From Anaerosoma tenue (lineage in GTDB: Bacteria > Actinomycetota > Coriobacteriia > Anaerosomatales > Anaerosomataceae), in NCBI RefSeq assembly GCF_023161965.1, contig NZ_JALNTY010000001.1:912501-976500 (forward strand): 64,000 nucleotides of DNA, given 5' to 3'. The notes beneath the pieces were generated by a model. That model was not told the DNA's origin. It saw nothing but the letters and a program-made list of their open reading frames with translations, and ran no database searches. Of this stretch, positions 39,801 through 62,199 are shown in pieces. Numbering within the stretch: the first letter of the stretch is position 1; each line of letters begins with the position of its first letter. The position numbers and the translations under genes were made by a program.

Positions 39801-40124
39801 GACCCAGTCGGTATCGGTGCCGGCCTGCACAGGCACCAAGCGGTCGGCTGTGTCGCCGAGGCCAAGCTGTCCGTTGTTGTTGTAGCCCCACACCCAGAGC
39901 GTGCCGTCGCTCCGGATCTGCAGCTTGTGTCCCCCGGAACCCATCGCGAGACTCTGCCCCCCGGGCGCTGCGTGCGCCAACATGGTCGGCGCGACCGCGA
40001 GAGCCACTGCCAGGAGCGTGAGGATGGCGAGGCGCATGAACCCCGCCGGGTACAGGGATCGCGCGGAGCGTTCCCCCTGGAAGCCTGTTCGAGTCCTCGT
40101 ACCAGTCAGCGAGCCAGCAGCCAT
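36873..40124 (-). CDS. Large surface protein with RCC1 repeats and Ig-like repeats
   Basis: About 1083 residues, exported. After a short basic leader, RLAILTLLAVALAVAPTMLA is the signal sequence. Seven RCC1-type repeats of about 50 residues follow (DGTLWAWGYNNYGQLGLGDT pattern), enough for one beta-propeller. Then come six Ig/cadherin-like repeats of about 94 residues starting GAIGDKSVDEL and ending ITVTVAEVN. A Thr/Asp/Glu-rich stalk leads to a C-terminal helix (FPWWMLAVAGVLAGVGLAGW) and basic tail, so it stays anchored in the membrane. No LPXTG motif. ATG 40124 has GAAGGGAAG before it. Probable role: adhesion or extracellular ligand binding. Confidence 0.88.
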   Translation of the reverse strand: MAAGSLTGTRTRTGFQGERSARSLYPAGFMRLAILTLLAVALAVAPTMLAHAAPGGQSLAMGSGGHKLQIRSDGTLWVWGYNNNGQLGLGDTADRLVPVQAGTDTDWVSVAAGGYAGVGHSLALKDDGTLWAWGYNNYGQLGLGDTANRTSPTQVGTDTDWVSVTVGRHHSLAIKADGTLWVWGYNPFGQLGQGDTVNRTSPTQVGTDTDWAQAAGNGYSSYAIKTGGALWAWGYNYYGQLGLGDTANRTSPTQVGTDTDWVTVQSGESFAMGIRSDGTLWAWGDNTAGQLGQGDTANRTSPTQVDTDSDWAGVEGGSRHVIAVRTDGTLWAWGNNYAGNLGLGDLNNRLVPTQVGIGTDWAFPVAGVNDSGALKTDGSAWLWGYNLEDHLGFGADAPSRFTAPTLLAAPPALGPIGDKSVDELSELTFTATATDADVPADTLAYSLDASAPVGAAIDSATGVFTWTPTEAQGPGSYPVTVSVSDGKGGVDSEAITVTVAEVNSAPVLGAIGDKSVNELSELTFTASATDADIPAQALTYRLAIPAPAGAAMTPDGVFTWTPSEAHGPGSYPVTVIVTDGVSSAFETITITVAEVNAAPVLGAIGDKTADELAELTFTATATDADLPANTLTYSLAAGAPAGASIDSTTGVFSWTPTEAQGSGSYDITVVVTDGKGGVDSETITVTVAEVNAPPVLGAIGDKTVDELSELTFTASATDADLPANTLTYSLGAGAPSGASIDSTTGVFTWTPTEAQGPGSYDITVTVSDGTASDSETITVTVAEVNAAPVLDAIGDKSVDELAELTFTASATDADLPANTLAYSLGAGAPAGASIDSTTGVFSWTPTEAQNGAHAFTVVASDGELTDSETITVTVAEVNTAPVLGAIGDKSVDELDELTFTASATDADVPANTLTYSLGAGAPAGAAIDSATGVFTWTPTEAQGPGTYSITVTVSDGTASDSETITITVAEVADEQPPTSTYSPPVTSSGGTSPDEQDSGATADEDAQSDTATETDAPAEDTDDGDAEAEDADEAAAADEPEADEPADDESGFPWWMLAVAGVLAGVGLAGWAIRTRSAGSGTS
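37205..38895. repeat. Six near-identical ~282-base repeats inside the surface-protein gene
   Basis: The Ig-like repeat units are highly similar at DNA level, with long exact stretches shared between units 3, 4, 5 and 6. This favours recombination and copy-number change between strains. Assembly collapse is possible, so the true number of units should be treated with care. Confidence 0.75.
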
Positions 40125-40340
40125 TGAACTTCCCTTCTTGTGCAGGAGGCCTGTCAACCGGCGGATCTCCCCCACCACAGACGATCTCTTCCCGAGAGTG
40201 ACAGAGCGCCTCGCGTCTGTCACGCCGGCTGCGCCCAGCACGCCCGCCACGCTTGCCGTGCACCCCGCTCCGTGCGTCAGCCCCACCCCCCGCCTTGGGT
40301 ACATCCCTTCTGTACGCCGCTCTCACGAGGGGGACTCGCG

Positions 40341-41886: not shown

Positions 41887-43590
41887 CTACCGCACCACGC
41901 CGTCCACGGTGGCCTTCACGGCGCAGCTCACCGCGCTGTCGCCGCCGAGGTAGCGAAGCGACCGCACCTCGGCGCAGTCCGCCGCCAGCCGCGCACGCAC
42001 CGCATCGGCAAGCTTCGTGCCCTGCGTGAGCAGCAGCACCGAGCGGCTGCGGCCCTGCAGCACGCCGCCCGCCAACGCGTCGGGGAAGTCGGTGCCCACG
42101 GCGATCGCGGCGCCCTCCCACTGGAGCCCCTCGGCCACCGCCCTGTCGGCGATTTTCGCGGCGGTCTCATAGCGGTCGGCGCCGGCGATACGCTCCACAG
42201 CAGCGCCACCGAGCCACGCCTCGAGCGCGCTCTCCACCGGCGCGCCCACAACACCGGTGCCGCCCAGCACCACCGCCTGCGACACGCGCATCTCCTCCAT
42301 CGCGCGCGCCGTGGAGTCCGCGAGGCCGTCCGGAGGCGTGAGCACGAGCAGCCATCCCTCGGCCGCCGAGAGCGGCGATGCGGCAAGCGCATCCGGGAAG
42401 CTCGCGCCGGTGGCCACGAAGCACTGCCCGCCGTACCCGTCGCCGAGCGCCGCACGCGCGGCGCGCGCCACGAACACGGAGGTCTCGTACCGGTCCGCCC
42501 CGCCGATGCGGGTCACCGAACCCGGGCCCAGCTCGGCCACAAGCGCCTGCTCCACCGCGGTCGACACGGCTCCGGCGCCGCCGAGGATCACCACGCTGCG
42601 CGCCCGCAGTCGGCGGATCTCGGCCAGCGTCTCTCCCGGAAGCGAAGCAGTGCGGGTGAGCAGGATAGGCGCGTCCTTGGCGCCCGCGAGCGCGGCCCCG
42701 CCGAGCGCGTCGGGCCAGTTCTCGCCGGTCACCAGCACCACTGTCTCCGCCGAGTCGAACGCCGCCGCGCTCATCCTGGCCGCGGTCTCGTAGCGGTTGG
42801 AGCCTGCGATGGTGGTGAAGGCCACGGACGGATCCGCGGCGTCGAAGTCGATCGTGAAGGTCACGCTCCTTGTGGCGGTGTTGCCCGCGCGGTCGGTCGC
42901 CGTGATCGTGAGCGTGTGCTCGCCCTCGGCGGAGATCGTGGAGCACGACGCGAACGCGCTGCCATCGAGGGTGGCGTTCACGGCGGCGAGCGAGGCGTCG
43001 GAGGCGGTGAATGCAGGCGTTATCGGACCCGCGTAGGTGGCGCCGTCGGCCACGCACGCAAGCGTGATCACGGGCGGCGTGGTGTCGGCGGGCAGGTCGT
43101 GGAAGTGGATGAAGCCGCTCACGGACGACGCGGTGATCGTGCGCCTCGTGTAGCCGCGGTCCACGCTGTAGTTGTAGTCCTCAACGACGATCGTGCCGTT
43201 GGCGTTCACGGCCTCCACGTACGCCACATGGCCGCTGGAACTCACGGTTCCGGCCGCCCACCAGGCTATCGCCCCCACCTCGGGAGTGCGGTCCACGGTG
43301 ATGCCGAGGTTTCGCGCGTTATTCGCCCAGTTCCCGGCATCGCCCCACCGGCCGCCGTCCATGAAGTTGGTGAAGCTGCCCTCGCCCGCGTTCTGGTTCA
43401 TCCGCCACGCCACGAACGACGTGCAGTAGCCCTTGTAGAAGCCCCACGGATCAGTACCTGTCTGGCCCTTGAACGGGTAGTCGTCAACGGCCATCGCGGC
43501 GGACGGCGCCATGATGAGCGCGGCTGTGATGAGGAGCGCTATGCCGAGGCGTGCCCGGGGCGAACGAGACAGTCCTGGAATGCCGATCAC
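41887..43590 (-). CDS. CHAP-domain wall protein with three CWB2 repeats
   Basis: About 567 residues, secreted. After a signal sequence (LGIALLITAALIMAPSAAMA) lies a CHAP amidase/peptidase domain: catalytic Cys in FYKGYCTSFVAWRM and His in SSGHVAYVEAV, with WANNARNLGI between. An Ig-like domain follows, then three cell-wall-binding repeat 2 units, each starting around RIAGADRYETA and containing a (D/E)NWPDALGGAALAG-like segment. CWB2 units anchor proteins non-covalently to wall polymers in Gram-positive bacteria. The GTG at 43590 is my choice; the frame is open to 43668. Likely a wall hydrolase or remodelling enzyme. Confidence 0.85.
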   Translation of the reverse strand: MIGIPGLSRSPRARLGIALLITAALIMAPSAAMAVDDYPFKGQTGTDPWGFYKGYCTSFVAWRMNQNAGEGSFTNFMDGGRWGDAGNWANNARNLGITVDRTPEVGAIAWWAAGTVSSSGHVAYVEAVNANGTIVVEDYNYSVDRGYTRRTITASSVSGFIHFHDLPADTTPPVITLACVADGATYAGPITPAFTASDASLAAVNATLDGSAFASCSTISAEGEHTLTITATDRAGNTATRSVTFTIDFDAADPSVAFTTIAGSNRYETAARMSAAAFDSAETVVLVTGENWPDALGGAALAGAKDAPILLTRTASLPGETLAEIRRLRARSVVILGGAGAVSTAVEQALVAELGPGSVTRIGGADRYETSVFVARAARAALGDGYGGQCFVATGASFPDALAASPLSAAEGWLLVLTPPDGLADSTARAMEEMRVSQAVVLGGTGVVGAPVESALEAWLGGAAVERIAGADRYETAAKIADRAVAEGLQWEGAAIAVGTDFPDALAGGVLQGRSRSVLLLTQGTKLADAVRARLAADCAEVRSLRYLGGDSAVSCAVKATVDGVVR

Positions 43591-43780
43591 CGTCCTCGGC
43601 GAGCGTGCAGTACCAGGCCATTGTAGGGAACCGGACGGCCCGTGCAACACCGCCGAACGGACTGTCACCCAGACGTGTCAAAGGGGGCGGCTGCGCCTTG
43701 CCGGACTTCCCCGCAGACACATCCGCCCAGGCATAGTACGATTCCGGCACGGCCCGTATCCGGGGGCAAGGGAGGCGATC

Positions 43781-44767: not shown

Positions 44768-45292
44768 CTACTGCTCGAGGAAGTCCAGGATCGCCTCCTG
44801 CTCCTCGCTGGTGAGTTCCAGTCCGTGCGACTCCTGCATGCGGCTCACGACATCGAGCCACGACGTGCCGTTCTCTGCCTGGTACACCTTCTCCAGGGAG
44901 TGGCAGTCGGTGCACTTCTCGGCGATCAGGGTCTCGGCCTCCGAGGGTTCGCGGGATGCGAGGTACTGCACCACGGCGTTCGCCTCATCATCGGTAAGCA
45001 CCACCTGATGGCTCTCCTCCATCCGCTGGACCACCATGTCCCAGTCCAGCCCTTCTTGCGGACCGCCCACGAACGCGGCGGTGAAGGCCATCTCGCTGTG
45101 GCACTCGAGGCAGACGCTGTCCGCCACTTGTTCGCCCTCCGCTACGACATCGTCTTCAGACGTGGCGGGCGACTCCGTTGCGTCCTGGCCGCCGTCAGCA
45201 GGCTCCTCGGCAGGGGCGGAACACCCGCCCATCGCAAGCAGTCCCACGATCAGCACGGCCACCAGGACCACGATCATGCTGCGTGTCTTCAT
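44768..45292 (-). CDS. Dihaem cytochrome c lipoprotein
   Basis: A 174-residue lipoprotein (lipobox AMGGC) with two haem c motifs, CLECH and CTDCH. The two halves are similar: each has the haem motif, then about 25 residues, then RMEESH or RMQESH, which supplies a candidate Met ligand, then a helix ending VVQYL or ILDFL. This is the quinohaemoprotein-type dihaem domain pattern. It should sit outside the membrane and pass electrons. It is the last gene of AOR operon 1, 17 bases after the accessory gene; copy 2 of the operon lacks it. ATG 45292 has AGAGGAACC upstream. Confidence 0.88.
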   Translation of the reverse strand: MKTRSMIVVLVAVLIVGLLAMGGCSAPAEEPADGGQDATESPATSEDDVVAEGEQVADSVCLECHSEMAFTAAFVGGPQEGLDWDMVVQRMEESHQVVLTDDEANAVVQYLASREPSEAETLIAEKCTDCHSLEKVYQAENGTSWLDVVSRMQESHGLELTSEEQEAILDFLEQ

Positions 45293-45309
45293 CACATCGG
45301 TTCCTCTCA

Positions 45310-45642
45310 TCAGCTGCCGACCTGGGCAAGGCGCTCACCGATCAGCGCGCGGGCGGCCTGCATGCACTCGTAGCCTGTGGAACAGGAGCCGTACGCGGCC
45401 TTCACCGCCTCGGCCAGTTCGCTGTCTCCCAGGGGTCCGGCGAGCCACTCCACCAGCCCGTCCGGGTCCAGGCACGCGTCGTCGGCGCCGAGGAACCCGT
45501 GCACCTGCGCCAGGCTGAAGAGCCTGCCGCCCACGCGGCTCCGTCCGTTGATGCGGAAGGCCGCCACGTAGTCACCCGGCCTGACCGGACGCATCACGCG
45601 CTCGGCCACCTCCGGAGTAGGAGTGTTGAGGGTACCCATCAT
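45310..45642 (-). CDS. AOR-linked small protein, copy 1
   Basis: A 110-residue soluble protein of no family I know. It starts MMGTLNTPTPEVAERVMRPV, has FLGADDACLDPDGLVEWLAG then PLGDSELAEAVKAAY, and ends with a helix. It is homologous to the protein at 56359-56739, which has the same position behind the second AOR gene: PEAAERLV and ALADWVSGNLGDPGLAAAI align. The start overlaps the AOR stop (ATGA), so it is made together with it. A maturation, chaperone or cofactor-delivery role for the tungsten enzyme is my inference. Confidence 0.75.
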   Translation of the reverse strand: MMGTLNTPTPEVAERVMRPVRPGDYVAAFRINGRSRVGGRLFSLAQVHGFLGADDACLDPDGLVEWLAGPLGDSELAEAVKAAYGSCSTGYECMQAARALIGERLAQVGS

Positions 45643-47714
45643 TCACCACCCAGCTTTCCGGCCGCTTCCAGCGTGTCGGCCACGTGGCCGAGGTCCACGC
45701 CTTCGAGCGTCTCGCGTGTAGGCCATCCTGTTGATACGTCCCAGCCCTCGAGCTCGTAGAACATCGTCTTGACGTCCTCCATGCGTTCGCGATCGATGAC
45801 CCTGCCGGTCACGAGACGGTAGTCCCACGTCCCGTCCTCGAAGGTCGGCATCCAGTACGGCCCGTACAGGTGTCCGCCGTACGGGACCTCGTAGAGGTAC
45901 TCCGAGTACTTGACCATGTCGCGGTGACGGCCCTGGATCGTCCAGATGGCGTTGTCCAGGTTCCAGATACGCCGCCCAAGCTCCATGCCGTCGGTGAAGC
46001 TCATGCCGTCGCCGGTCACGGCGTTCCAGAAGAGCGGTTCGCCCTCAGGGGTGAAGCCGCCGCGATCCTCGGTCTTGGGGCTGTAGAAGTCCGCGAACCG
46101 GTAGTCGCAGTAGAGCGCCGATTCCTTCCAGAAGCGCGTGTAGTGACGGTGCCACGCGGTGAGCTTGACCTGACCCTCGGAGTACATGCCGTCCTCGGAG
46201 AAGTCGAGCATCATCGGGTCGGGGTCGAACGGAAGCATCCGCTCCGCGAACTTGGTCACGAACTCCTCGGCTTCCATCCAGCTGGGGATGCCGTACCACT
46301 TGGCGATCGACGGCTTCCAGAACAGGTTGTTGAAGTCGTGCTCGTTGATGTCGCGGTCGCCGAGGATGCTGCCCCAGCCCCAGTACGCCTCAGCGCGAGG
46401 GTCGTAGCCGTGCTCGGGCAGACCCCAGTACGAGTAGTGGAGCACGCCGCTGGCGGTGTCCTCCTCCAGGCGTCCCCAGTGCTCGGCGGCGCGCCACATG
46501 CCCTCGGCCAGGATGTCGCCCGCCCCTTCGCGGTCGGCCACCATCCTCTGGTAGGTCTCGATGAACTCGCGGCTGCCGTACGTGTCCCACGGCAGGTCGA
46601 TATCCACCTGCTTGCCTACGCCGGCGATGCCCTCCTGGTAGAGGTGGTAGAGCCAGTTGAGACCGTGGTCGATCTCGTAGACGTTGATGCCCAGGCGCTG
46701 CACCATCTCCGCCGAGTACCGAACGGTCGGCGTGGTCTGACCCTGGTTGTACATCATGTCCGCGAAGAAGTAGAAGTACGTCTCCTCGCAGCTCGACTCG
46801 TTGCCGAGGCCGTCGCTGAAGCGCGCGCGGCACGAGGAGATGCAGCTCTGGCAGGCCTGTGGGCGCGACCCCACATCGGTGGGCATCGGGTACATGACCG
46901 CCGGCGACGGATTGCCCGAGAAGCGCGCCCAGCCAAAGCCGTCCTTGGGCTCGTCCACATTCACGCCAAGATCCTCACGCGCCGAGAAGCGCGCGTTAAG
47001 CAGCGCCGCCGCGTCGGCCACGTCGATGTCCTTGGAGCCGATCACGCTGATGGCCTTCAGGTTCTTGGCGCCCCACACACCGCCGAAACCGCCCTGCGCG
47101 GCCGCGTTGCCAGCGTCGTGGATGAGAGCGCCCACGCGCGACTTCTTCTCGCCCGAGGGGCCGATCGTGATCACGGCCGACTGCAGCGCGGCGCGCTCGC
47201 CCGACTTCGTGCCGATCTCACGCCAGCCGTCCGAGTTGGCCACCTGGAGGTTCCAGATGCGCTCCTGCGTGTCGTAGGTGTCGAGACCCCAGAGGCCGTC
47301 GGTCTCCGCGTCGCGCAGGACCACGCGGTCGTTCTCGATCTCGATCCACGTCGGCTTGGAGGCCGCACCTTCGAGCACGATGCCGTCCCAGCCGGCGAAC
47401 TTCATCATCGTGGCGAACCGGCCGCCCATGTTCGAGCGGGTGAACCATTCCGGCGTGGACTGCACGCCGATGCCCTGGATCTCGAGCCGCGAAGCCGACG
47501 GCGCCAGCGTGCCCGCAAGCGGCGAACTCATGATCGTGATCACATTGGCCGGGTCGAAGCCCGAGATCGTCTTGTCCGCGCAGAGGTCCCAGAAGATGGC
47601 CGAGCCCATACCGTGGCCGCCACCCCACTCCCGGTACTGCTCGGTCTCGATCTCCGAGACCGTGCCCGCGGTGAGATCCACCCGCAGGATCTTCCCAGCG
47701 TATCCATTACCCAT
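45639..47714 (-). CDS. Aldehyde:ferredoxin oxidoreductase family protein, catalytic subunit, copy 1
   Basis: A 691-residue tungsten/molybdopterin enzyme of the AOR family, longer than the usual 600-620. The [4Fe-4S] cysteines are C288, C291 and C295 in QACQSCISSCRARF and a fourth near C536 in SALYCDYRF. The N-terminal domain (YAGKILRVDLTAGTVSEIET, then WGGGHGMGSAIFWDL) matches the pterin-binding fold. AOR enzymes oxidise aldehydes or reduce acids with low-potential carriers; the true substrate here is unknown. No signal peptide. Third gene of a cytochrome b-ferredoxin-AOR-accessory-cytochrome c operon. Confidence 0.9.
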   Translation of the reverse strand: MGNGYAGKILRVDLTAGTVSEIETEQYREWGGGHGMGSAIFWDLCADKTISGFDPANVITIMSSPLAGTLAPSASRLEIQGIGVQSTPEWFTRSNMGGRFATMMKFAGWDGIVLEGAASKPTWIEIENDRVVLRDAETDGLWGLDTYDTQERIWNLQVANSDGWREIGTKSGERAALQSAVITIGPSGEKKSRVGALIHDAGNAAAQGGFGGVWGAKNLKAISVIGSKDIDVADAAALLNARFSAREDLGVNVDEPKDGFGWARFSGNPSPAVMYPMPTDVGSRPQACQSCISSCRARFSDGLGNESSCEETYFYFFADMMYNQGQTTPTVRYSAEMVQRLGINVYEIDHGLNWLYHLYQEGIAGVGKQVDIDLPWDTYGSREFIETYQRMVADREGAGDILAEGMWRAAEHWGRLEEDTASGVLHYSYWGLPEHGYDPRAEAYWGWGSILGDRDINEHDFNNLFWKPSIAKWYGIPSWMEAEEFVTKFAERMLPFDPDPMMLDFSEDGMYSEGQVKLTAWHRHYTRFWKESALYCDYRFADFYSPKTEDRGGFTPEGEPLFWNAVTGDGMSFTDGMELGRRIWNLDNAIWTIQGRHRDMVKYSEYLYEVPYGGHLYGPYWMPTFEDGTWDYRLVTGRVIDRERMEDVKTMFYELEGWDVSTGWPTRETLEGVDLGHVADTLEAAGKLGGE

Positions 47715-47753
47715 AGCGATAAGCGCCTTTCTCTCGTAAGAGTGCGATCGGGC

Positions 47754-48458
47754 CTAGCCCTCGATGTCGGCCACGTAGCCGAACGAGGCCCAGTTCTCCG
47801 TGCGGAGGTTCGGCGAGTAGCCGTCCTCTGTCTGCTCAGGAAGGTCAGTGGTGAACTTGATGGCCCGCATCGGGCACACGCTCTCGCACGCGCGGCGACC
47901 ATCGATGCCGCCCTCGTCGTCCATGTACGGCGTGTCGAGGCACAGGTCGCACTTCTGAGAAGCGTGACCCTCCTCGCTCCACTGCACTGCGGAGACCGCG
48001 CGCGGGCATGCCGCCACGCAGCGCAGGCATCCGATGCACCGCAACTGATCCACGGTACGCACGCCCGTCTCGGGGTCCACGTGCATCGCGCCGGTGGGAC
48101 ACGCCTGAACGCACTCGTCGCACTGCCAGCACTGCACCGGATCGATGTCGTAGGGGAACGCCTTGAACGGGTTCTGTGTGATCTGGATACGGGAAAGCGA
48201 GTGGTTCGCCGCGCCATGGTGTGCGATCGCGCAGGCGGCCATGCACGTGGAGCAGCCGGAGCACTTCTTCTGGTCCACGAGCAGGAACCCGCCCGAGACC
48301 GGATAGGCGATCACCTCATCGGGAAGCAGGAACACCTGGGCGACCGCGCCACCGATGACGCCGAGCGCGCCAAGGGCGCCGATACCGCCCATGAACTGCC
48401 GGCGCGATAGACCTCTGGCGCCGTCTTCAGCCGGATTGACGTCTTTGATGTCCGACAT
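47754..48458 (-). CDS. Tat-signal ferredoxin subunit with four [4Fe-4S] clusters, copy 1
   Basis: A 234-residue electron-transfer protein of the DmsB/PhsB type. The N-terminus has a twin-arginine signal, LSRRQFMGGIGALGALGVIG. Sixteen cysteines follow in four groups: CSGCSTCMAAC, CWQCDECVQAC, CIGCLRCVAAC, and CDLC with CESVC. It would link the AOR subunit to cytochrome b. The Tat signal means the subunit is folded before export; because AOR has no signal, it may travel with this subunit. ATG 48458 has GGAGG upstream, two bases after the cytochrome b stop. Confidence 0.9.
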   Translation of the reverse strand: MSDIKDVNPAEDGARGLSRRQFMGGIGALGALGVIGGAVAQVFLLPDEVIAYPVSGGFLLVDQKKCSGCSTCMAACAIAHHGAANHSLSRIQITQNPFKAFPYDIDPVQCWQCDECVQACPTGAMHVDPETGVRTVDQLRCIGCLRCVAACPRAVSAVQWSEEGHASQKCDLCLDTPYMDDEGGIDGRRACESVCPMRAIKFTTDLPEQTEDGYSPNLRTENWASFGYVADIEG

Positions 48459-48460
48459 GG

Positions 48461-49321
48461 CTACGCCTCCTTTCCGGTGGTCGTGCTCTCGGAGGCGCTC
48501 AGGCGCTGATACCAGCCGGCGTGCTCCTTCTCCGCGTACTCGCGGGGGACGTAGCCGGTGAACATCGAGCGCAGGACAGGCCATGACATCGGCAGCACGC
48601 TCGAGAAGAACACGTGCGCCACGAAGAACAGCAGCATCGCGATCGTGGAGACGCCGTGGACGGGGGTCGCCGCCGACACGAGCCAGGCGGGGAGATCCAT
48701 CAGGTGGGCGAGCACCTTCACGATCCCGCTCAGGATCACACCCACGCTGGCGAGGATGGCCAGGATGTACGCCATCTTCTCGCTCTCGAAGTACTTGTCC
48801 TCGGGCGGCATGGTGAACTTCTTGATGCCGAGGAGCTTGCCGTAGTGCTGCACCGTGAACGAGAACGCGTTGCCGGTGGGCAGGTGCTCCTTGAAGCGAT
48901 AGGCCGAGACGATCGTGTTGGCCGCGTAGTAGAACGTGCCGAACAGGAACACCACCACGCCCACGAAGTGCAGGTTCATCATGAGCCACACGCCGTCGGT
49001 GTCGCGCACGAGCCGGGGCACGAACAGGAAGCCGAGCCCCACGCCGGTGGCGAGCAGCAGGGCCGTGCCGAGGCCGTGGGCCCAGTGCTCCAGGCGAGCC
49101 GCTCCGTCGTGGCGGAGCACCCTGTCGCCCTCGATGCGCGGATCCTGCCTGCGAGTGAGCCCCGCGGCAAGCACGCCAAGGAACGGTGCGAGGAAGACCA
49201 GCCACCAGGCTGAATCGAACAACAGGCCACCGCCCTCGCTGCGGGTAGCCTGCACGGCCCACAGACTGCCGAGCCCGAGGGCCAGCGTCAGGCCGAGCAC
49301 GGGTAGGACGCCCTTCTTCAT
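48461..49321 (-). CDS. Cytochrome b subunit (FdnI/formate dehydrogenase gamma-like), copy 1
   Basis: A 286-residue membrane protein with about six helices, resembling dihaem cytochrome b subunits of formate dehydrogenase. Helices include WWLVFLAPFLGVLAAGL, LGTALLLATGVGLGFLFVP, LMMNLHFVGVVVFLFGTFYY and STIAMLLFFVAHVFFSSVLP. Candidate haem-ligating histidines are in EHWAHGLG, NLHFVG, PVHGVS and VAHVFF. It would exchange electrons with quinones. The first gene of AOR operon 1; ATG 49321 follows GAAGGAGAGAGT. Divergent from the Fic-like regulator, 202 bases away. Confidence 0.88.
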   Translation of the reverse strand: MKKGVLPVLGLTLALGLGSLWAVQATRSEGGGLLFDSAWWLVFLAPFLGVLAAGLTRRQDPRIEGDRVLRHDGAARLEHWAHGLGTALLLATGVGLGFLFVPRLVRDTDGVWLMMNLHFVGVVVFLFGTFYYAANTIVSAYRFKEHLPTGNAFSFTVQHYGKLLGIKKFTMPPEDKYFESEKMAYILAILASVGVILSGIVKVLAHLMDLPAWLVSAATPVHGVSTIAMLLFFVAHVFFSSVLPMSWPVLRSMFTGYVPREYAEKEHAGWYQRLSASESTTTGKEA

Positions 49322-49413: not shown

Positions 49414-49470
49414 CGCCCTGGTAACGTACGCTATTTCAGTTCGATTCAAGTCAGGATTCGGTCAGTTTTC

Positions 49471-49503
49471 GAGGCTTTCTATCAGTCATTGATAGAAAGC
49501 CTC
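49471..49503. promoter_or_regulatory. Perfect 14-base inverted repeat before the Fic-like regulator gene
   Basis: GAGGCTTTCTATCA, five bases GTCAT, TGATAGAAAGCCTC, ending 20 bases before the ATG at 49524. It could be a DNA operator for the winged-helix protein or an mRNA hairpin that limits its translation; the ribosome site GGAAGGG lies just after it. Confidence 0.7.
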
Positions 49504-49523
49504 GCGCGGAAGGGAAGCCGCAT

Positions 49524-50828
49524 ATGAGTCCCATGCACGACCGAACGCTGCTCGATGGACTGCTCGGCCAGATCGGCGGCACCCGCCTTGAGGACACGCT
49601 GCATCGAGCCAACAGCCCGTACCTCTTCCGCACCGAGTTCCAGCGGATGCCTCTGCCGAAGGGAGTGGACCAGGACGCCGCCTGGCGTCTGCTCGACTGG
49701 GCGCGACGAGTCTGCCGACGGACGATCGTGACGGTGCCGGGCAGGGACGAGGTGTGGTACTTCCCCACCGACGAGATCACCCGGTGCCTGCATCGCATCG
49801 ACATGCTCGCGGGCTGGCCGATGCAGTCTGCGCTTCGCGGCCTGGGCGCGGAGCAGACGCGGTTCTCGGGCTCGGCCGCGATGAAAGAAGCCGTTGCGGC
49901 ATGCATCGACCGGGACCACGCTCACCTGGCCCCCGACCTGGTGGCAGACCTGAAGCGCGGCGCGCAGCCGGAGACGGTGCTCGGGCAGCAGATCGCCAAC
50001 TACTACGACGCGGTATCGCGCATCGAGGAGTTCGCACGGTCGCCGTTCGACGTGGCCTTGCTGAAGCGGCTACAGGTGGACCTGTCCCGGGGACTCATCC
50101 TCACCGAGGACGAAGCGCTGCGGCTGCGAGAGACGCCCAACGCCGACGAGGGCCCCATCGACGAGTGGGCCAAGTCGGGCCCCACGGCCCCGGAGAGGAT
50201 CGAAGCGGAGATGCAGCGCATCGAGGCGCTCTCCGCTGACTCGGGCGGCTTCCTGCACCCGATGATCAGGGCCATGGTGATCTACTTCTGGCTCGAGGAC
50301 ATGCGTCCGTTCGCGCACCGCCAACCGGGGATGGCGCGGCTTGCGTTCCTCGTGTTCCTGCGCCAGCAGGGCTACGTGAACCTCGAGCTGGTGCCGCTCG
50401 CGCAGATCACCCTCGAGCGCGGCGGCGAGCTGCCGCGCGCCTGGCGCGCCGCCATCGTGAACGAACGCGACCTCACCGGGTTCCTCACGTTCAACCTCCA
50501 GGCGCTCGTCGGCGCCCTTGAGGACATGCAGCAACGGATCGAGATGGCGTCGCGTCGCTACGACGCCGTCCGGCAGGCGCTGCGCGCGAAGGAGGACCTC
50601 AACCACCGGCAGGTGTCCATTCTCGGGCGCGCGCTACGCGTCCCCGGCGCGACGTTCACGATCGCCTACCACAAGCGGGCCTACGACATCGCCTATGCCA
50701 CCGCACGCGGCGACCTGCTCGATCTCGTGGACAAGGGCTACCTCGAGTACGAGCGCGTGAGCCACGAGTATGTGTTCACGCCTGCGCCGGGGCTCGGCAA
50801 ACGCCTGAAGTCCGGCGCCGGCGGGTGA
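49524..50828 (+). CDS. Fic-fold/winged-helix regulator with dead active site, copy 1
   Basis: A 434-residue protein. A Fic-like core is recognisable at about 245-275: GGFLHPMIRAMVIYFWLEDM followed by RPFAHRQPGMARL, where active Fic enzymes have HPFxDGNGRxxRL. His is replaced by Arg and the GNGR loop is lost, so AMP transfer is not expected. The C-terminus (about 359-418) is a winged helix: LNHRQVSILGRALR, then AYATARGDLLDLVDKGYLEY, as in Fic-wHTH proteins. It is divergent from AOR operon 1, with a perfect hairpin before its start. I infer a transcriptional regulator of that operon using the dead Fic fold as a sensor. Confidence 0.75.
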   Translation: MSPMHDRTLLDGLLGQIGGTRLEDTLHRANSPYLFRTEFQRMPLPKGVDQDAAWRLLDWARRVCRRTIVTVPGRDEVWYFPTDEITRCLHRIDMLAGWPMQSALRGLGAEQTRFSGSAAMKEAVAACIDRDHAHLAPDLVADLKRGAQPETVLGQQIANYYDAVSRIEEFARSPFDVALLKRLQVDLSRGLILTEDEALRLRETPNADEGPIDEWAKSGPTAPERIEAEMQRIEALSADSGGFLHPMIRAMVIYFWLEDMRPFAHRQPGMARLAFLVFLRQQGYVNLELVPLAQITLERGGELPRAWRAAIVNERDLTGFLTFNLQALVGALEDMQQRIEMASRRYDAVRQALRAKEDLNHRQVSILGRALRVPGATFTIAYHKRAYDIAYATARGDLLDLVDKGYLEYERVSHEYVFTPAPGLGKRLKSGAGG

Positions 50829-56358: not shown

Positions 56359-56739
56359 CTACTCGAGCTCCGCTCCCGCCGCATCGGCTGTGCCGTCCGC
56401 CTCCGCAAGCACCACCGTGGCCTCCTCGAACCTGGCAGCCATCGCCACACGCGCGGGACCGGCCACTTTGAAGGCCGGTACACCCTCGCACGCTTCGTGG
56501 ATAGCCGCCGCAAGGCCTGGGTCGCCAAGGTTGCCGGAGACCCAGTCGGCCAGCGCGTCAACGGAGAACACGGGCTCGAGCACCTGCGATACCTTGAGGA
56601 ACTCCTCGGCCGAACAGACCGGCACCTGCTCGAATCCGCCGTGCTTGCCGATCACACTCACGGTGAGCCGCTTGTCGTACGGCTGCCGTGCAACGAGCCG
56701 CTCGGCGGCCTCGGGCGTCATCGCAGCCAGTTCCGCCAT
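56359..56739 (-). CDS. AOR-linked small protein, copy 2
   Basis: A 126-residue protein homologous to the one at 45310-45642. It starts AELAAMTPEAAERLVARQPY, has a strand pair (RLTVSVIGKHGGFEQVPVC), then VLEPVFSVDALADWVSGNLG followed by DPGLAAAIHEACEG, and ends in an Ala/Glu-rich tail not found in copy 1. The gene begins two bases after the AOR stop. The conserved position in both operons is the main clue to a role with the tungsten enzyme. No metal-binding or catalytic motif is evident. Confidence 0.72.
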   Translation of the reverse strand: MAELAAMTPEAAERLVARQPYDKRLTVSVIGKHGGFEQVPVCSAEEFLKVSQVLEPVFSVDALADWVSGNLGDPGLAAAIHEACEGVPAFKVAGPARVAMAARFEEATVVLAEADGTADAAGAELE

Positions 56740-56741
56740 CG

Positions 56742-58817
56742 CTAGCCTCCCAGCTTCCCGGCCGACTCGAGCGTGTCGGCGACCTCCGGGAGTCCGACCT
56801 CTTCGAGAGTCTCCCGCGTGGGCCAGCCTGAGGCCAGATCCCAGCCTTCGAGCGTGTAGAAGCGGTCCTTCCACTGCTCGAAGCCGTCGATGTCGAGCGC
56901 GCGGCCGAGCGCGTTGATGTACGTCCACTCCCCGTCCACCTTGCCGGCGAGCGGGTAGAACGGGCCTACGAGGCTCGTCTCGAGCGGGACCTGGTACATG
57001 TACGGCGCAAGCTTCACGATGTCGCGGTGGCGACCCTGCAAGGCCCAGATGGCGTTGTCGAGGTTCCATATCCTGCGGCCGAGTTCGATACCCTCGGCAT
57101 AGGTCATGTCGTCACCGGTCACCGCGTTCCAGAAGAGCGGCTCACCATCGCCGGTCATACCCACATCGTCGGCGGCGGCGAAGTTGGCCAGGTCGGGCCA
57201 GCGGAAGTCGCAGTACAGCGCGCTCTGCTTCCAGAAGCGTGTGTAGTGCCGCTGCCACGAGACCAGCTTGGCCATCGACTCCGAGTAGATGTTGCCGGTG
57301 CTGAAGTCCACCATGTCCATGTCGCCCTCGTAGGGGACCATCTTGGCGGTGACGATCTCGGCATATCGCTCGGCGGAGATCGGCACGTCGAGCCCGGCGC
57401 CCATGTGGTTGATCACGGCCCAGAAGTGCGCGTTCAGACCATGCTCGTTCATATCGCGCTCGCCCATGATCGAGCCGTAGCCCCACTCCACCTCCGTGCG
57501 CGGATCATACCCATGGTTGGCGTAGCCCCAGTACGGGAAGTCGAGGATGCCCGTCTGCCAGTCTTCTTCCAGCCGGCCCCACTTCTCAGCTGCGCGCACG
57601 AACCCTTCGGCTATGTCCTCGCCGATGTCCTCGCGCATCGCGACCTTGGTGATGAAGTCCACCGCGAATGAGGTCTCGCCGATGGTAGAGAAGTCGAGTT
57701 TCGTGTCGATCTCGAGACCGGGGCCGAGGATTCCCATCTGGTTGAGCGCGTACAGGTAGCTGAGACCCCGGGCGAGTTCGTAGGAGTTGATGCCATACCG
57801 CTGCACGAGATCGGTGGCGATCACCGACGCGTCGGTGTGCGCGCCGTGCTTGAGCGCATCGAACGTGGTGTACACGCCGGTCTCCTGGCACGACGACTCG
57901 TTGGCCAGCCCGTCGCTCCAGCGCGGACGGCACCCGGCGATGCAGCCCTGGCACGCTTGCGGGCCCATCGTCACCTCGGTCTTGCGCTTGAAGAACAGCG
58001 TGGGTGACGGAGCCCTGCCGAGCGACGGTCCGTTTGGCGGGGCCGGCTGGCCCGTCTCGGCACCGAACTCGTCCTTGGCAAGCATGCGGGCGTTGAACAG
58101 GGCGATCGGATCGGCGATCTCCACCGAACCGGTCCCCACCACGCTGATCGCCTTGAGATTCTTCGAGCCGAAGACCGCGCCGAAACCGCCCTGGCCAGCG
58201 CCGTTGCCAGCGTCGTGGATGAGGCAACCGAGGCTTGAGAGGTTCTCGCCAGCGGGACCGATCGTGACGACCGCCGACTTCTGCGTGGTGCGGCCCGCAT
58301 CGCGCGCGGCACCCACGTTGTCCCAGCCGTGGGCCTCGTCGTCCTTCTGCCCCCAGATGAGCTTCTGCGTCTCCTGAGTGTCCTTGCCCCACAGGTCAGC
58401 CGCATCGCGGAACTCCACGGAGTCGTTCACGATGTCGATCCACACGGGAGCCTCGGACTTGCCGGTGATCACGATGCCGTCCCAGCCCGCGTACTTGAGC
58501 TGCCCGCCGAACCGCCCGCCGAAGTTGGAGCGGGTGAACCAGCGGATGGGATACCCCGCCGCGCCGATGCCCTGGACCTCCACACGTCCCGAAGCCGACG
58601 GGACCATCGTCCCGGAGAGTGGCGACGTCATCATGGTGACCACGTTCTTCGGGTCGTCCCACGCGACGTTCTTGTCTTCCACGAGATCCCAGAAGATCGC
58701 GGACCCCATGCCGTGACCGCCGCCCCACTGCTTGTACTGCCCGGTGTCGATCACCGAGTGCTCTCGAGCGGTGAGATCCAGCATGAGGATCTTGCCGCTG
58801 TAACCGTCCTTCGCCAT
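56742..58817 (-). CDS. Aldehyde:ferredoxin oxidoreductase family protein, catalytic subunit, copy 2
   Basis: A 691-residue AOR-family subunit clearly paralogous to 45639-47714 and the same length. Cluster cysteines are C289, C292 and C296 in QACQGCIAGCRPRW plus the later SALYCDFRW. The pterin-binding N-terminus reads YSGKILMLDLTAREHSVIDT, then WGGGHGMGSAIFWDL. Much of the C-terminal half is conserved with copy 1 (LFWNAVTGD, RRIWNLDNAIW, QGRHRD), while loops near 120-180 and 240-280 differ, which may change substrate. No signal peptide. The gene is 53 bases downstream of its ferredoxin gene. Confidence 0.9.
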   Translation of the reverse strand: MAKDGYSGKILMLDLTAREHSVIDTGQYKQWGGGHGMGSAIFWDLVEDKNVAWDDPKNVVTMMTSPLSGTMVPSASGRVEVQGIGAAGYPIRWFTRSNFGGRFGGQLKYAGWDGIVITGKSEAPVWIDIVNDSVEFRDAADLWGKDTQETQKLIWGQKDDEAHGWDNVGAARDAGRTTQKSAVVTIGPAGENLSSLGCLIHDAGNGAGQGGFGAVFGSKNLKAISVVGTGSVEIADPIALFNARMLAKDEFGAETGQPAPPNGPSLGRAPSPTLFFKRKTEVTMGPQACQGCIAGCRPRWSDGLANESSCQETGVYTTFDALKHGAHTDASVIATDLVQRYGINSYELARGLSYLYALNQMGILGPGLEIDTKLDFSTIGETSFAVDFITKVAMREDIGEDIAEGFVRAAEKWGRLEEDWQTGILDFPYWGYANHGYDPRTEVEWGYGSIMGERDMNEHGLNAHFWAVINHMGAGLDVPISAERYAEIVTAKMVPYEGDMDMVDFSTGNIYSESMAKLVSWQRHYTRFWKQSALYCDFRWPDLANFAAADDVGMTGDGEPLFWNAVTGDDMTYAEGIELGRRIWNLDNAIWALQGRHRDIVKLAPYMYQVPLETSLVGPFYPLAGKVDGEWTYINALGRALDIDGFEQWKDRFYTLEGWDLASGWPTRETLEEVGLPEVADTLESAGKLGG

Positions 58818-58870
58818 TGCATTACCTCCCGGTAGTCACTGCGTCATGCAGCGCGTGTTCGCGTGGTCGT

Positions 58871-59614
58871 CTAGTGCGAGGCCGTGGCGGCCGCGGGGTT
58901 CTCCGTGCCGGCGTCGTCGATCGGGTAGCCGATCTTCGCCCACCCGGCGTCGCGCAGATTCACCACGTAGCCCTCGTCCGACTGCAGCGGAATCTCCTTC
59001 GTGAAGCTGATGGCGCCCGTGGGGCATACCTGCTCGCACGCACGCTTGCCGTCGGGTCCGCCCTGCTCGTCCCAGTAGGGGGTGTCCTTGCACAGGTCGC
59101 ACTTCTGCGCGTGCTTGTCCTCGGTGTTCCAGATCACTCGGCTCGTATCCATCGGGCATGCGTTCACGCACTCCTGGCAGCCGATGCACTTGGCCACGTC
59201 CACCGTGCGCACGCCTGTCTCGGTATCCACGTGCATCGCCCCGGTGGGGCACGCCTCCACGCACGCCGGGTAGGGGCACTGGCGGCACTGGATGATCGCC
59301 TTGTCGTTGGGGAACGACTCGAACGGGTCCTGCACCACCTGGATGCGGCTGAGCGACAGGCTCTGCACGCCGTGATGCGTGAGCGAGCACGCCATCATGC
59401 AGGTGCTGCAACCCTGGCACTTCATGGGATCCACCAGCAGGTAGCCGTCCGAGGCCGGTATGGCGATCACCTCGTCGGGCAGGAGGAAGCCCTTCACCAC
59501 GAGGCCGCCGAGGACCAGGCCGAAGCCCGCCCCGCCGACGCCGGTGATGAACTCGCGGCGTGAGACGCCCGTGCTCTCGGCGGCAACGCCGGTCGTCGTG
59601 TCCTTGTCCACCAT
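58871..59614 (-). CDS. Tat-signal ferredoxin subunit with four [4Fe-4S] clusters, copy 2
   Basis: A 247-residue paralogue of 47754-48458. Twin-arginine signal VSRREFITGVGGAGFGLVLG, then the same FLLPDEVIAIPASDGYLLVD junction and four cysteine groups: CQGCSTCMMAC, CRQCPYPACVEAC (two extra residues here), CIGCQECVNAC, and CDLC with CEQVC. Role: electron wire between AOR copy 2 and cytochrome b copy 2, probably outside the cytoplasm. Its ATG shares one base with the cytochrome b stop (TGATG), so the two are coupled. Confidence 0.9.
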   Translation of the reverse strand: MVDKDTTTGVAAESTGVSRREFITGVGGAGFGLVLGGLVVKGFLLPDEVIAIPASDGYLLVDPMKCQGCSTCMMACSLTHHGVQSLSLSRIQVVQDPFESFPNDKAIIQCRQCPYPACVEACPTGAMHVDTETGVRTVDVAKCIGCQECVNACPMDTSRVIWNTEDKHAQKCDLCKDTPYWDEQGGPDGKRACEQVCPTGAISFTKEIPLQSDEGYVVNLRDAGWAKIGYPIDDAGTENPAAATASH

Positions 59615-60537
59615 CAGTCGTTTCCTTTCGCTCTCGTCGGCCCTGGGTGCGCCGGTGTGTCGTGAGATGCCTGGTGCCCTCCCGCTGCGACCACCGCGAC
59701 GGATGGCTCGTCGCCGAGGGAGGCCAGCCAGCCGGCGTGTTCGTGGCGTGCGTACTCCAACGGCACGTAGCCGGTGAACATCGAGCGCAGCACCGGCCAG
59801 CTCATCGGGAGGATCGCGGCGAAGAACACGTGCGCGAGGAAGAACGCCAGCATCGCGATCGTGGCGATGTCGTGCGCCGGCGTTGCGACGGCCATGAGCC
59901 AGCCCGGTACATCGACCGCGTGAGCCGCGACCTTGAGGAACCCGGTGACGATGATGACCGCCGTGGATACGAGCGCGAGGAGGTACGCCATCTTCTCGCT
60001 CTCGAAGTACTTGCGCTCGGGTGGGAACGCGAGCTTCTTGAACCCGAGCAGCAGGCCATAGTGGCGGCGCGTGAAATCGACCGCGTCGCGCGTGGGCAGG
60101 TGCTCGCGGAAACGATGCGTCGCGAGCAGCGTGTTGGCCCCGTAGTAGAAGGTGCCGAACAGGAACACCAGCACCGCGACGAAGTGGATGTTCATCGCCG
60201 CCCGCACCGGCGCCCCGCTTCCAAGCAGCGTGGGTACGAACAGGAAGCCCAGAGCGATGCCGCTTGCCAGCAGCGCCGCCGTCCCCACGCCATGGGTCCA
60301 GTGCTCGACGATCGCCGCGCCATCGTGCCTGAGCACGCGGTCGCCTTCGATCACCGGGTCCCTGCGTCTCGTGAGCCCGGCGGCCAGCACACCCGCGAAC
60401 GGTGCCAGCCACACGAGCCATGTCGCCGAGTCGAACAGGAGTCCTGCCCCCTCGGCCGATGCCGAACGCACCGCGTAGGCGATGCCGACGATGAACGCCA
60501 GCACTGCGAGTGCTCCGGCGATGGCACGTCGTGCCAT
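59614..60537 (-). CDS. Cytochrome b subunit (FdnI-like), copy 2
   Basis: A 307-residue paralogue of 48461-49321 with the same six-helix plan: N-terminal helix ALAVLAFIVGIAYAVRSASA, WLVWLAPFAGVLAAGL, AALLASGIALGFLFVPTL, NIHFVAVLVFLFGTFYYGAN and ATIAMLAFFLAHVFFAAILP. Histidines in EHWTHGVG, NIHFVA, PAHDIA and LAHVFF are kept, supporting haem b binding. It carries a longer C-terminal tail than copy 1. ATG 60537 follows GGAAGGGG by 7 bases. First gene of AOR operon 2 and divergent from the second Fic-like regulator. Confidence 0.88.
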   Translation of the reverse strand: MARRAIAGALAVLAFIVGIAYAVRSASAEGAGLLFDSATWLVWLAPFAGVLAAGLTRRRDPVIEGDRVLRHDGAAIVEHWTHGVGTAALLASGIALGFLFVPTLLGSGAPVRAAMNIHFVAVLVFLFGTFYYGANTLLATHRFREHLPTRDAVDFTRRHYGLLLGFKKLAFPPERKYFESEKMAYLLALVSTAVIIVTGFLKVAAHAVDVPGWLMAVATPAHDIATIAMLAFFLAHVFFAAILPMSWPVLRSMFTGYVPLEYARHEHAGWLASLGDEPSVAVVAAGGHQASHDTPAHPGPTRAKGND

Positions 60538-60921
60538 ACGCACACCCCTTCCCTTGTTCCATTGACGGACTGGCCGGATCCGTGAAGCCACCCCAGCAAA
60601 GCAGGGTCTGAACTACTAGTCAAGGTCATACTAGTATTTAAAAGGCCCCCCACCCCGATTCCGGGCCTGGAAACGGCAATCTGCAGCTACCGTTGTCTTC
60701 ACCAAGGTGTACAGATTCTAGGTTCAAACAGCAGAATCCAACCTTCAAACCCAGCGCTCGCTTCCATGGCAGGAACCTTTTCCCCTAGAATGTCGATTAT
60801 GGTAGTTGGCGAGTACACCAGCGCACCTCATGCCGCAGAGCGCGCGTCGAGGAATAGCCAGCGTGATACGCTGCGACCATCGTCTCAGGGGACACTGATC
60901 GAGAAGGGGCTCCAGCGCTCG
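60538..60921. promoter_or_regulatory. Divergent control region of AOR operon 2 and Fic-like gene 2
   Basis: A 384-base stretch with no gene I trust. It is AT-rich relative to the genome. TACTAGT (60614-60620) and ACTAGTA (60630-60636) form an inverted repeat with a 9-base spacer, followed by TTTAAAA, a likely operator over or next to the AOR promoter. A frame open from 60766 reads into the regulator, but its first 52 codons look non-coding and alignment with copy 1 supports the ATG at 60922. Confidence 0.5.
60614..60636. promoter_or_regulatory. TACTAGT/ACTAGTA inverted repeat
   Basis: Two 7-base perfect arms, 9 bases apart, 77 bases above the cytochrome b copy 2 start. Each arm also contains the self-complementary ACTAGT. 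It fits a dimeric DNA-binding protein such as the divergent winged-helix regulator. Confidence 0.55.
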
Positions 60922-62199
60922 ATGACTGAGGACATCGACAGAGATATCGCGATGCGGGTCATCGAGGCTTTCGAGTCGGGACGCCTCGACTACCTGTTCG
61001 CGGAGACGAACATCCAGTACTTCGACCGTGCCGACTTCGAGGGCATGCGGTTTGGCACCGGACTACCACGCGACTCGATCTGGCGGCTCCTCGCCTCGGT
61101 GCGCAGGGCAACCGGTCTCGTGGTCTTCGAGAGCGCCTGGGGCGACGCTCAGGTACGTGTCTCACTCACGGCACAGCTCCTCAAGGCACTCTCTGAGATC
61201 GACACCTGGCCGCGACGCAGTCTGTTCGGCCGCAGTGGACTCCCCGCAGACGAGGAGGGGATCGTCAGGGATCGGCTGCTTGTTGAGGAGGCCACCCTGA
61301 TCGGGCTGTTCAAGACCGGCGCCGATCCCACTGCCAGCGCAGCGTTGGAGGAGGTGCGCTCATCGGTGATCGCTTCGGTCTATGACGGGATACCGCCCGC
61401 CGACGAGGCATCATCGATCGCCACACGCTTCTACGAGATCTCGCGCGAATTGCCACACCTGCTCAACGACCCGCCAACACCGGATGACATCCGCGGCATC
61501 CATGCACGACTCCGAGGCGACGCGCCTGACGCCGGCCGCTTCCGAACCGCAGCGGGCGACCCGGACGGCCTTCGTTCCGCACCCGGTGTTGCGCCCGAGC
61601 GGATCGAGCGTGAGATGGATATGCTGTGCGCGTATGCCGGCAGCACAGACGTTCCATTCATCCACCCGCTCATCAAGAGCATCGCTATCGCCTGGTGGAT
61701 CCGATACGTGCAGCCGTTCGACGAGTACAACTACCTGGTAGGCCGCCTCGTGTCTCTCGGCTGGATCGTGCATCAGGGCTACACGCTGCTGGGCATCGCT
61801 GACCCACACTACCGCTTCAAGTCGGCAACGGTCGCTTCGGGCGACCAGACCGCGAAGTTCATCCGCCATCTTGAGGTCATCAGAGACGCGGCGAGTCTCG
61901 GTGAGGAGCGCCTCGAGGAGCGTGTCGAACGCTATGCGATCGTGATGGGTCGTTTCGGTCATCTCGACATCAACCACAGGCAGGCGTTCATCCTCGACCG
62001 TGCCACGCAGCGCCCGGACACCGAGTTCACGATCAAGCATCATGCGCGCACGCGACAGCTGTCCTACGAAACGGCGCGCCAGGACCTCCTGCGCTTGGTG
62101 GAGATGGGATACCTGGAGCAGAGCAAGCGCGGCCGCGCCTTCGTGTTCACGCTCGCCCACAGCATGGTGGACCAGCTCGGCCGGGACGCACGGGGCTGA
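60922..62199 (+). CDS. Fic-fold/winged-helix regulator with dead active site, copy 2
   Basis: A 425-residue paralogue of 49524-50828. The Fic core near residues 246-276 reads DVPFIHPLIKSIAIAWWIRY, then VQPFDEYNYLVGRL: the catalytic His is Gln and the GNGR loop is NYLV, so it cannot transfer AMP in the normal way. The C-terminal winged helix has INHRQAFILDRATQ and LSYETARQDLLRLVEMGYLE. Overall identity to copy 1 is modest, but domain order and length agree. It is divergent from AOR operon 2. ATG 60922 has GAAGGGG about 12 bases upstream and aligns with the copy 1 start. Probable operon-specific regulator. Confidence 0.73.
   Translation: MTEDIDRDIAMRVIEAFESGRLDYLFAETNIQYFDRADFEGMRFGTGLPRDSIWRLLASVRRATGLVVFESAWGDAQVRVSLTAQLLKALSEIDTWPRRSLFGRSGLPADEEGIVRDRLLVEEATLIGLFKTGADPTASAALEEVRSSVIASVYDGIPPADEASSIATRFYEISRELPHLLNDPPTPDDIRGIHARLRGDAPDAGRFRTAAGDPDGLRSAPGVAPERIEREMDMLCAYAGSTDVPFIHPLIKSIAIAWWIRYVQPFDEYNYLVGRLVSLGWIVHQGYTLLGIADPHYRFKSATVASGDQTAKFIRHLEVIRDAASLGEERLEERVERYAIVMGRFGHLDINHRQAFILDRATQRPDTEFTIKHHARTRQLSYETARQDLLRLVEMGYLEQSKRGRAFVFTLAHSMVDQLGRDARG

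Follow-up and report, generated by a model that had tools for sequence, protein, structure and literature searches.

What does an enzyme of the aldehyde oxidoreductase (AOR) family do in an operon laid out like that of a respiratory formate dehydrogenase? The question is raised by positions 44768-49321 of a 64-kb stretch of the Anaerosoma tenue genome, which we call the window. A preliminary description of this DNA had proposed that the locus couples an aldehyde or acid reaction directly to the membrane quinone pool or to extracellular acceptors. Judging from sequence comparisons, we consider it likely that the locus encodes an exported, membrane-anchored respiratory oxidoreductase with a W- or Mo-bis-pyranopterin cofactor, a Class V-type WOR by its subunit make-up.

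Organization of the Operon

All five open reading frames lie on the minus strand, and their coordinates and Pfam domains agree with the five-gene operon originally described. From 49321 down to 44768 they are:

48461..49321 (-): dihaem cytochrome b, FdnI/PhsC-like, 286 aa, five to six hydrophobic segments (PF01292, E 3e-14)
47754..48458 (-): four-cluster ferredoxin, WorS-like and NrfC-like, with Tat signal SRRQFMG (Fer4 families including PF12838 and PF13187)
45639..47714 (-): AOR-family catalytic subunit, WorL-like, 691 aa, no signal peptide (PF02730, E 8e-50; PF01314, E 2e-31)
45310..45642 (-): small conserved companion protein, 110 aa, no signal, no Pfam or NCBIfam family
44768..45310 (-): dihaem c-type cytochrome, probable lipoprotein (PF09098, E 2e-15; two CxxCH motifs; probable lipobox from reading the sequence)

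The genes are tightly packed: the cytochrome b and FeS genes are separated by 2 bp and the FeS and AOR genes by 39 bp, the AOR gene overlaps the small gene by 4 bp, and the small gene overlaps the cytochrome c gene by 1 bp. The same order, without cytochrome c, is repeated at 56359-60537 (copy 2):

59614..60537 (-): cytochrome b, start codon uncertain (homology to copy 1, 384 bits; four His kept)
58871..59614 (-): Tat four-cluster ferredoxin, motif SRREFIT (profile match and homology to copy 1)
56742..58817 (-): AOR-family catalytic subunit, 52% identical to copy 1 (domain and profile matches)
56359..56739 (-): small companion protein (alignment with the copy 1 family)

The copy 1 cytochrome b scores 49.9 bits against TIGR01583, under the cut-off of 115.85, and it has the four haem-ligand histidines in transmembrane helices that define the FdnI/PhsC type: His79, 118, 222, and 236 are kept in 42-43 of 43 aligned sequences, E. 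coli YdhU included. In the FeS protein, which starts at 48458, SRRQFMG is followed by a hydrophobic stretch and by 16 cysteines in four ferredoxin-type groups; it reaches 89 bits against the NrfC model, under that model's cut-off, and the RR motif and 16 cysteines are common to the FeS subunits of its relatives. Homologues of the c-type cytochrome sit behind the small gene in sister operons. The genome also encodes TatC, and a MenA that scores over its cut-off.

With a catalytic subunit, a four-cluster FeS protein, an FdnI-like dihaem cytochrome b, and a cytochrome c all identified, the formate dehydrogenase-like respiratory layout first proposed is supported. The first three of these components are shared with formate dehydrogenase-N (FdnGHI) and with PhsABC-type enzymes. 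In FdnGHI and PhsABC the catalytic subunit has a Tat signal of its own and is a member of the DMSO reductase (MopB) superfamily, which is unrelated to the AOR family of the catalytic subunit here.

Genes for FdhD, for the genome's single MoeA, and for TupA-like and TupB-like proteins lie within a stretch of about 4 kb, an arrangement that recalls the Tup/FdhD/MoeA neighbourhood given for a Cetobacterium Class V enzyme in the main text of PMC13328260. With 199 bits against an equivalog cut-off of 400, the TupA-like protein is named for its best match only. These genes make the tungsten assignment of the preliminary description plausible, and tungsten is the likely metal; since a ModA is also present elsewhere in the genome, molybdenum could serve as well.

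A Deep and Widely Distributed Lineage

The genome (2.1 Mb, 99% complete) contains nine AOR-family genes, three of which look canonical and six of which are of the window type, the other five being 46-52% identical to copy 1. Those paralogues for which a relative was included in the tree pair with orthologues from other genomes and hence do not stem from recent tandem duplication. Of the six, two are at contig ends; cytochrome b is directly upstream in all four whose upstream side is covered. The same holds for every Anaerosomatales locus whose contig continues beyond the ferredoxin gene on that side; where such a locus also extends past the AOR gene at the other end, the small gene comes next.

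A search of other genomes for AOR genes adjoining an FdnI-like cytochrome b, the check proposed at the outset, found the order across several phyla. Cytochrome b-FeS-AOR recurs in Bacillota, Ferrimonas, Shewanella, Campylobacterota, and a Gordonibacter MAG, and the four-gene order that includes the small gene is conserved across Anaerosomatales, Bacillota, Gammaproteobacteria, and Campylobacterota, a recurrence that places the arrangement far beyond chance. Other phyla often have the Tat-ferredoxin/AOR pair alone. In Malonomonas rubra and Thioalkalivibrio the gene immediately after the small gene encodes a cytochrome with eight CxxCH motifs (L095:10492-11493, L099:10099-11571), and no cytochrome b is adjacent.

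The catalytic subunits form a clade (44 rows) that a branch of 1.2 changes per site (SH-aLRT 100) sets off from YdhV, BamB, and the canonical AORs; YdhV joins it in the best tree with a support of only 58, and the trees give no well-supported order among the clade and these three groups. Of 298 sampled Coriobacteriia genomes, 29 match the clade profile at E 1e-60. The YdhV equivalog model (NF007354) scores above its cut-off in 73 of the 298, none of them among the listed genomes of the window's family, and seven named genomes that carry the window lineage, including Shewanella, have no YdhV match over that cut-off.

The Predicted Metal Site

The AF2 model of the catalytic subunit matches AOR-family structures with Z scores of 29-34. 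Its FeS-cluster cysteines (Cys288, 291, 295, and 536; CxxCxxxC plus a distal Cys) align with residues 288, 291, 295, and 494 of Pyrococcus furiosus AOR (PfAOR; 1aor). In three clade sequences from Acidobacteria (L132, L138) the motif reads CxxCxxxD, Asp replacing the third cluster Cys, and the Cys at the metal position is kept.

That further Cys, Cys309, occupies its sequence position in all 44 clade members, and in the hmmsearch alignment it falls on Cys322 of BamB, the class II benzoyl-CoA reductase (PDB 4z3w), whose fold the subunit shares (Z 32). A 2025 review (PMC12096430) reports that Cys322 of BamB and Cys336 of YdhV ligate the metal and that both proteins are without the second-shell residues typical of AOR; according to the same review, the remaining characterised AOR clades all oxidize aldehydes with no protein ligand to the metal. 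Counted directly, the motif Cys of YdhV is residue 336, and its match to Cys309 is one of motif, because the multiple alignment puts the two in different columns. Since pLDDT in the AF2 model is under 50 at residues 252-308, which makes the active-site geometry unusable, the position of Cys309 is taken from sequence alignment, and on that basis we predict that Cys309 is probably a metal ligand.

At other positions the agreement with the classical enzymes is partial. His459 (PfAOR His448) is found in 44 of the 44 clade members, Tyr437 (PfAOR Tyr427) in 34, and an acidic residue at 311 (PfAOR Glu313) in 28; PfAOR Thr243 is aligned to a gap. By sequence, then, the site is a mixture, the position of a Cys ligand being combined with counterparts of the AOR-type Tyr, His, and acid. 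If the metal is Cys-ligated, as is probable, classical aldehyde oxidation is an unlikely reaction for the enzyme; the retained Tyr427 and His448 counterparts and the frequent acid would still permit aldehyde chemistry.

The Small Companion Protein

Searches of Pfam and NCBIfam with the 110-aa protein returned no match. Across 40 aligned members of its family, Trp66, Asp73, and Arg104 are invariant. Its AF2 model is of high confidence (pLDDT 94.6), and comparison of the fold with the PDB gave no significant match (Foldseek E 1.9 or worse; best VIA Z 4.9), a result that leaves the fold without an assignment but does not establish it as a new one. Identity with E. coli YdhW was rejected (hhalign probability 0.2%). 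Several lineages have the small gene after the AOR gene both with and without a neighbouring cytochrome b, and for this reason the protein seems tied to the catalytic pair. A 2023 review (PMC10609526) reports that no member of the aldehyde oxidoreductase family has a recognised enzyme-specific chaperone. The small protein is a candidate for either a dedicated maturation factor or an extra subunit, two roles that we regard as equally open.

Flanking Genes and Inverted Repeats

Upstream of each operon in the window is a divergently oriented gene of the Fic type:

49470..49504 (no strand): perfect 15-bp inverted repeat CGAGGCTTTCTATCA/TGATAGAAAGCCTCG with a 5-bp spacer, between the cytochrome b gene and the Fic-like gene, just upstream of the latter
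49524..50828 (+): divergent Fic-fold protein, Fic active motif lost (homologous to the copy 2 gene; no match in Pfam)
60766..62199 (+): copy 2 divergent Fic-fold gene, degenerate motif VQPFDEYNYLVGRL (PF02661, E 1e-5)

A Fic-type gene likewise flanks most Anaerosomatales copies of the operon. The catalytic His of the Fic motif, HxFx(D/E)GN, is gone in all 26 homologues in which the motif is readable, and it is possible that these putative, catalytically dead Fic proteins have been reused as operon regulators; a search of the literature on Anaerosomatales or Fic-type regulators found nothing relevant. The core pattern of the 15-bp repeat is unique in the window, where none would be expected, and the repeat is possibly an operator. 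The repeat at copy 2 (60611-60639) is another one, imperfect and of 10 bp. The six paralogues, together with their separate Fic-type genes, suggest differing substrates.

In about 20 sister operons, from Anaerosomatales, Bacillota, and one archaeon, a B12-binding radical SAM gene (PF02310 and PF04055) lies 13-183 bp behind the small gene; the window operons are without it. Examples are:

L010:10707-11984 (-): B12-binding radical SAM gene
L010:4954-6240 (-): B12-binding radical SAM gene
L080:10528-11823: B12-binding radical SAM gene
L094:10506-11813: B12-binding radical SAM gene

Elsewhere in the window, 41887-43668 (-) encodes a secreted protein with a CHAP-like N-terminus and cell-wall-binding-type repeats (translation read by eye), and 36873-40304 (-) encodes a large protein with RCC1-like repeats and bacterial Ig/Rib domains.

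Discussion

The central idea of the preliminary description is already in print as a class. In the main text of Putumbaka et al. (2026, PMC13328260), Class V WORs (Clade 41) are defined by a WorL, a WorS with a Tat signal and/or transmembrane segment, membrane association, and at least one further membrane or cytochrome subunit; a respiratory role is proposed, the E. coli ydh operon (ydhYVWXUT) typifies the class, and Coriobacteria are among its holders. The same text assigns roughly one in ten catalogued WORs to Class V, with a reaction or physiological role known for none, and reports the class from Clade 41 alone within a 92-clade tree. The window operon has the corresponding parts: a WorL, a WorS with its Tat motif, hydrophobic stretch, and 16 cysteines, and further subunits in the cytochrome b directly upstream and the cytochrome c downstream. 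It is matched to Class V by this make-up and not by placement in Clade 41. Its WorL is of a deep lineage that scores below the cut-off of the YdhV equivalog; and its companions differ, being the small protein, the dihaem cytochrome c, and the Fic-type genes, with B12-radical SAM genes in sister operons.

Because the FeS subunit carries a Tat signal, it and the AOR subunit that accompanies it are expected to face outward, a point that the preliminary description did not spell out, and a respiratory-type membrane complex with a cytochrome c makes coupling to the quinone pool the best reading. We envisage that the catalytic subunit would assemble with the ferredoxin in the cytoplasm, perhaps with the help of the small protein, and leave through the Tat system by hitch-hiking on the ferredoxin's signal; outside the cell the enzyme would dock onto the dihaem cytochrome b, which would trade electrons with menaquinone. 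In copy 1, alone of the two window copies, the dihaem cytochrome c may offer a second electron route. The membrane and quinone part of the coupling originally proposed is upheld by the sequence and by the Class V and ydh precedents, and the c-type cytochrome is the sole direct pointer to extracellular acceptors.

As to the direction of electron flow, we lean toward a dehydrogenase that oxidizes a periplasmic substrate and reduces quinone, which we rate somewhat above a quinol-dependent reductase. The latter, in which menaquinol would feed cytochrome b, the ferredoxin, and finally an external acceptor in a layout like that of PhsABC or DmsABC, is a less probable but serious contender. The cytochrome b ligands are common to YdhU; BamB, with the same Cys ligand, acts as a reductase; and six diverged paralogues, the majority of those covered on the upstream side having a separate regulator-like gene next to them, would suit a set specific for different acceptors. 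Tungsten sites, however, usually have a low potential, and this speaks for oxidation in which menaquinone accepts the electrons.

A genuine aldehyde:quinone oxidoreductase, an outward-facing membrane AOR that converts aldehyde to acid with quinone or cytochrome c as acceptor, would fit the AOR fold and the residues Tyr437, His459, and often Glu/Asp311 that align with those of PfAOR. The characterised aldehyde-oxidizing clades lack a protein ligand to tungsten, however, and at the sequence level Cys309 sets the window enzyme apart from them; Thr243 of PfAOR falls opposite a gap in the alignment, and the main text of PMC13328260 reports that a Class V relative, CsWOR41L, was inactive with 46 aldehydes. 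We regard this explanation as improbable, and the aldehyde or acid reaction in the original proposal finds no support. P. furiosus AOR itself has no protein ligand to W, is cytoplasmic, and uses ferredoxin.

It is very unlikely that the catalytic subunit is a true orthologue of E. coli YdhV, a bis-Mo-MPT enzyme. The two systems have in common an AOR-family subunit with an extra Cys, a four-cluster ferredoxin, and a cytochrome b with the same four histidines, and the best tree groups them at the low support given above. The gene order nevertheless differs, the catalytic subunits are 29% identical, one ferredoxin is present here versus two in E. coli, the long branch separates the clade, the small protein is not YdhW, and no homologue of YdhW or YdhT was found; YdhV has no Tyr at the AOR Tyr427 position, whereas most of the window clade does. 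Orthology was rejected on the equivalog score (210.5 bits against a curated cut-off of 868). BamB also differs in setting, being cytoplasmic and part of a bifurcating complex, while the window enzyme is apparently exported and associated with a quinone-type cytochrome b. A soluble AOR of the ordinary kind, linked to ferredoxin and with unrelated neighbours, would account for the fold and the missing signal peptide and is scarcely credible given the overlapping genes and their constant order in many phyla, the Tat signal on the adjacent ferredoxin, the dihaem cytochrome b, and the grouping of the genome's three other AOR-family genes, which are not of the window type, with canonical AORs.

Returning to the exported respiratory oxidoreductase, several of its features are not found in the main text of PMC13328260: a separate deep lineage, an active site of mixed character, the expansion to six genes in one genome, and the linkage to Fic-type and B12-radical SAM genes. 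More speculatively, and with considerable doubt, we suggest that the window operons represent a second deep lineage of exported WORs apart from YdhV, with a hybrid metal site, a non-aldehyde chemistry in the cell envelope, substrate-specific paralogues, and a small protein that is the first dedicated maturation factor of the AOR family.

The predicted Cys ligand argues against a search for substrates that is confined to aldehydes, and the fixed set of ferredoxin, cytochrome b, and small protein tells the experimenter which partners to co-express; in the two Class V expression attempts so far recorded in the main text of PMC13328260, the L subunit was used alone or was all that was obtained. 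The lineage is found in many phyla and has multiplied in environmental Anaerosomatales. The Fic-type genes, and the B12-radical SAM gene of the sister operons, provide new handles on inducers and substrates. Should the suggested role of the small protein prove true, the AOR family would have its first dedicated maturation factor.
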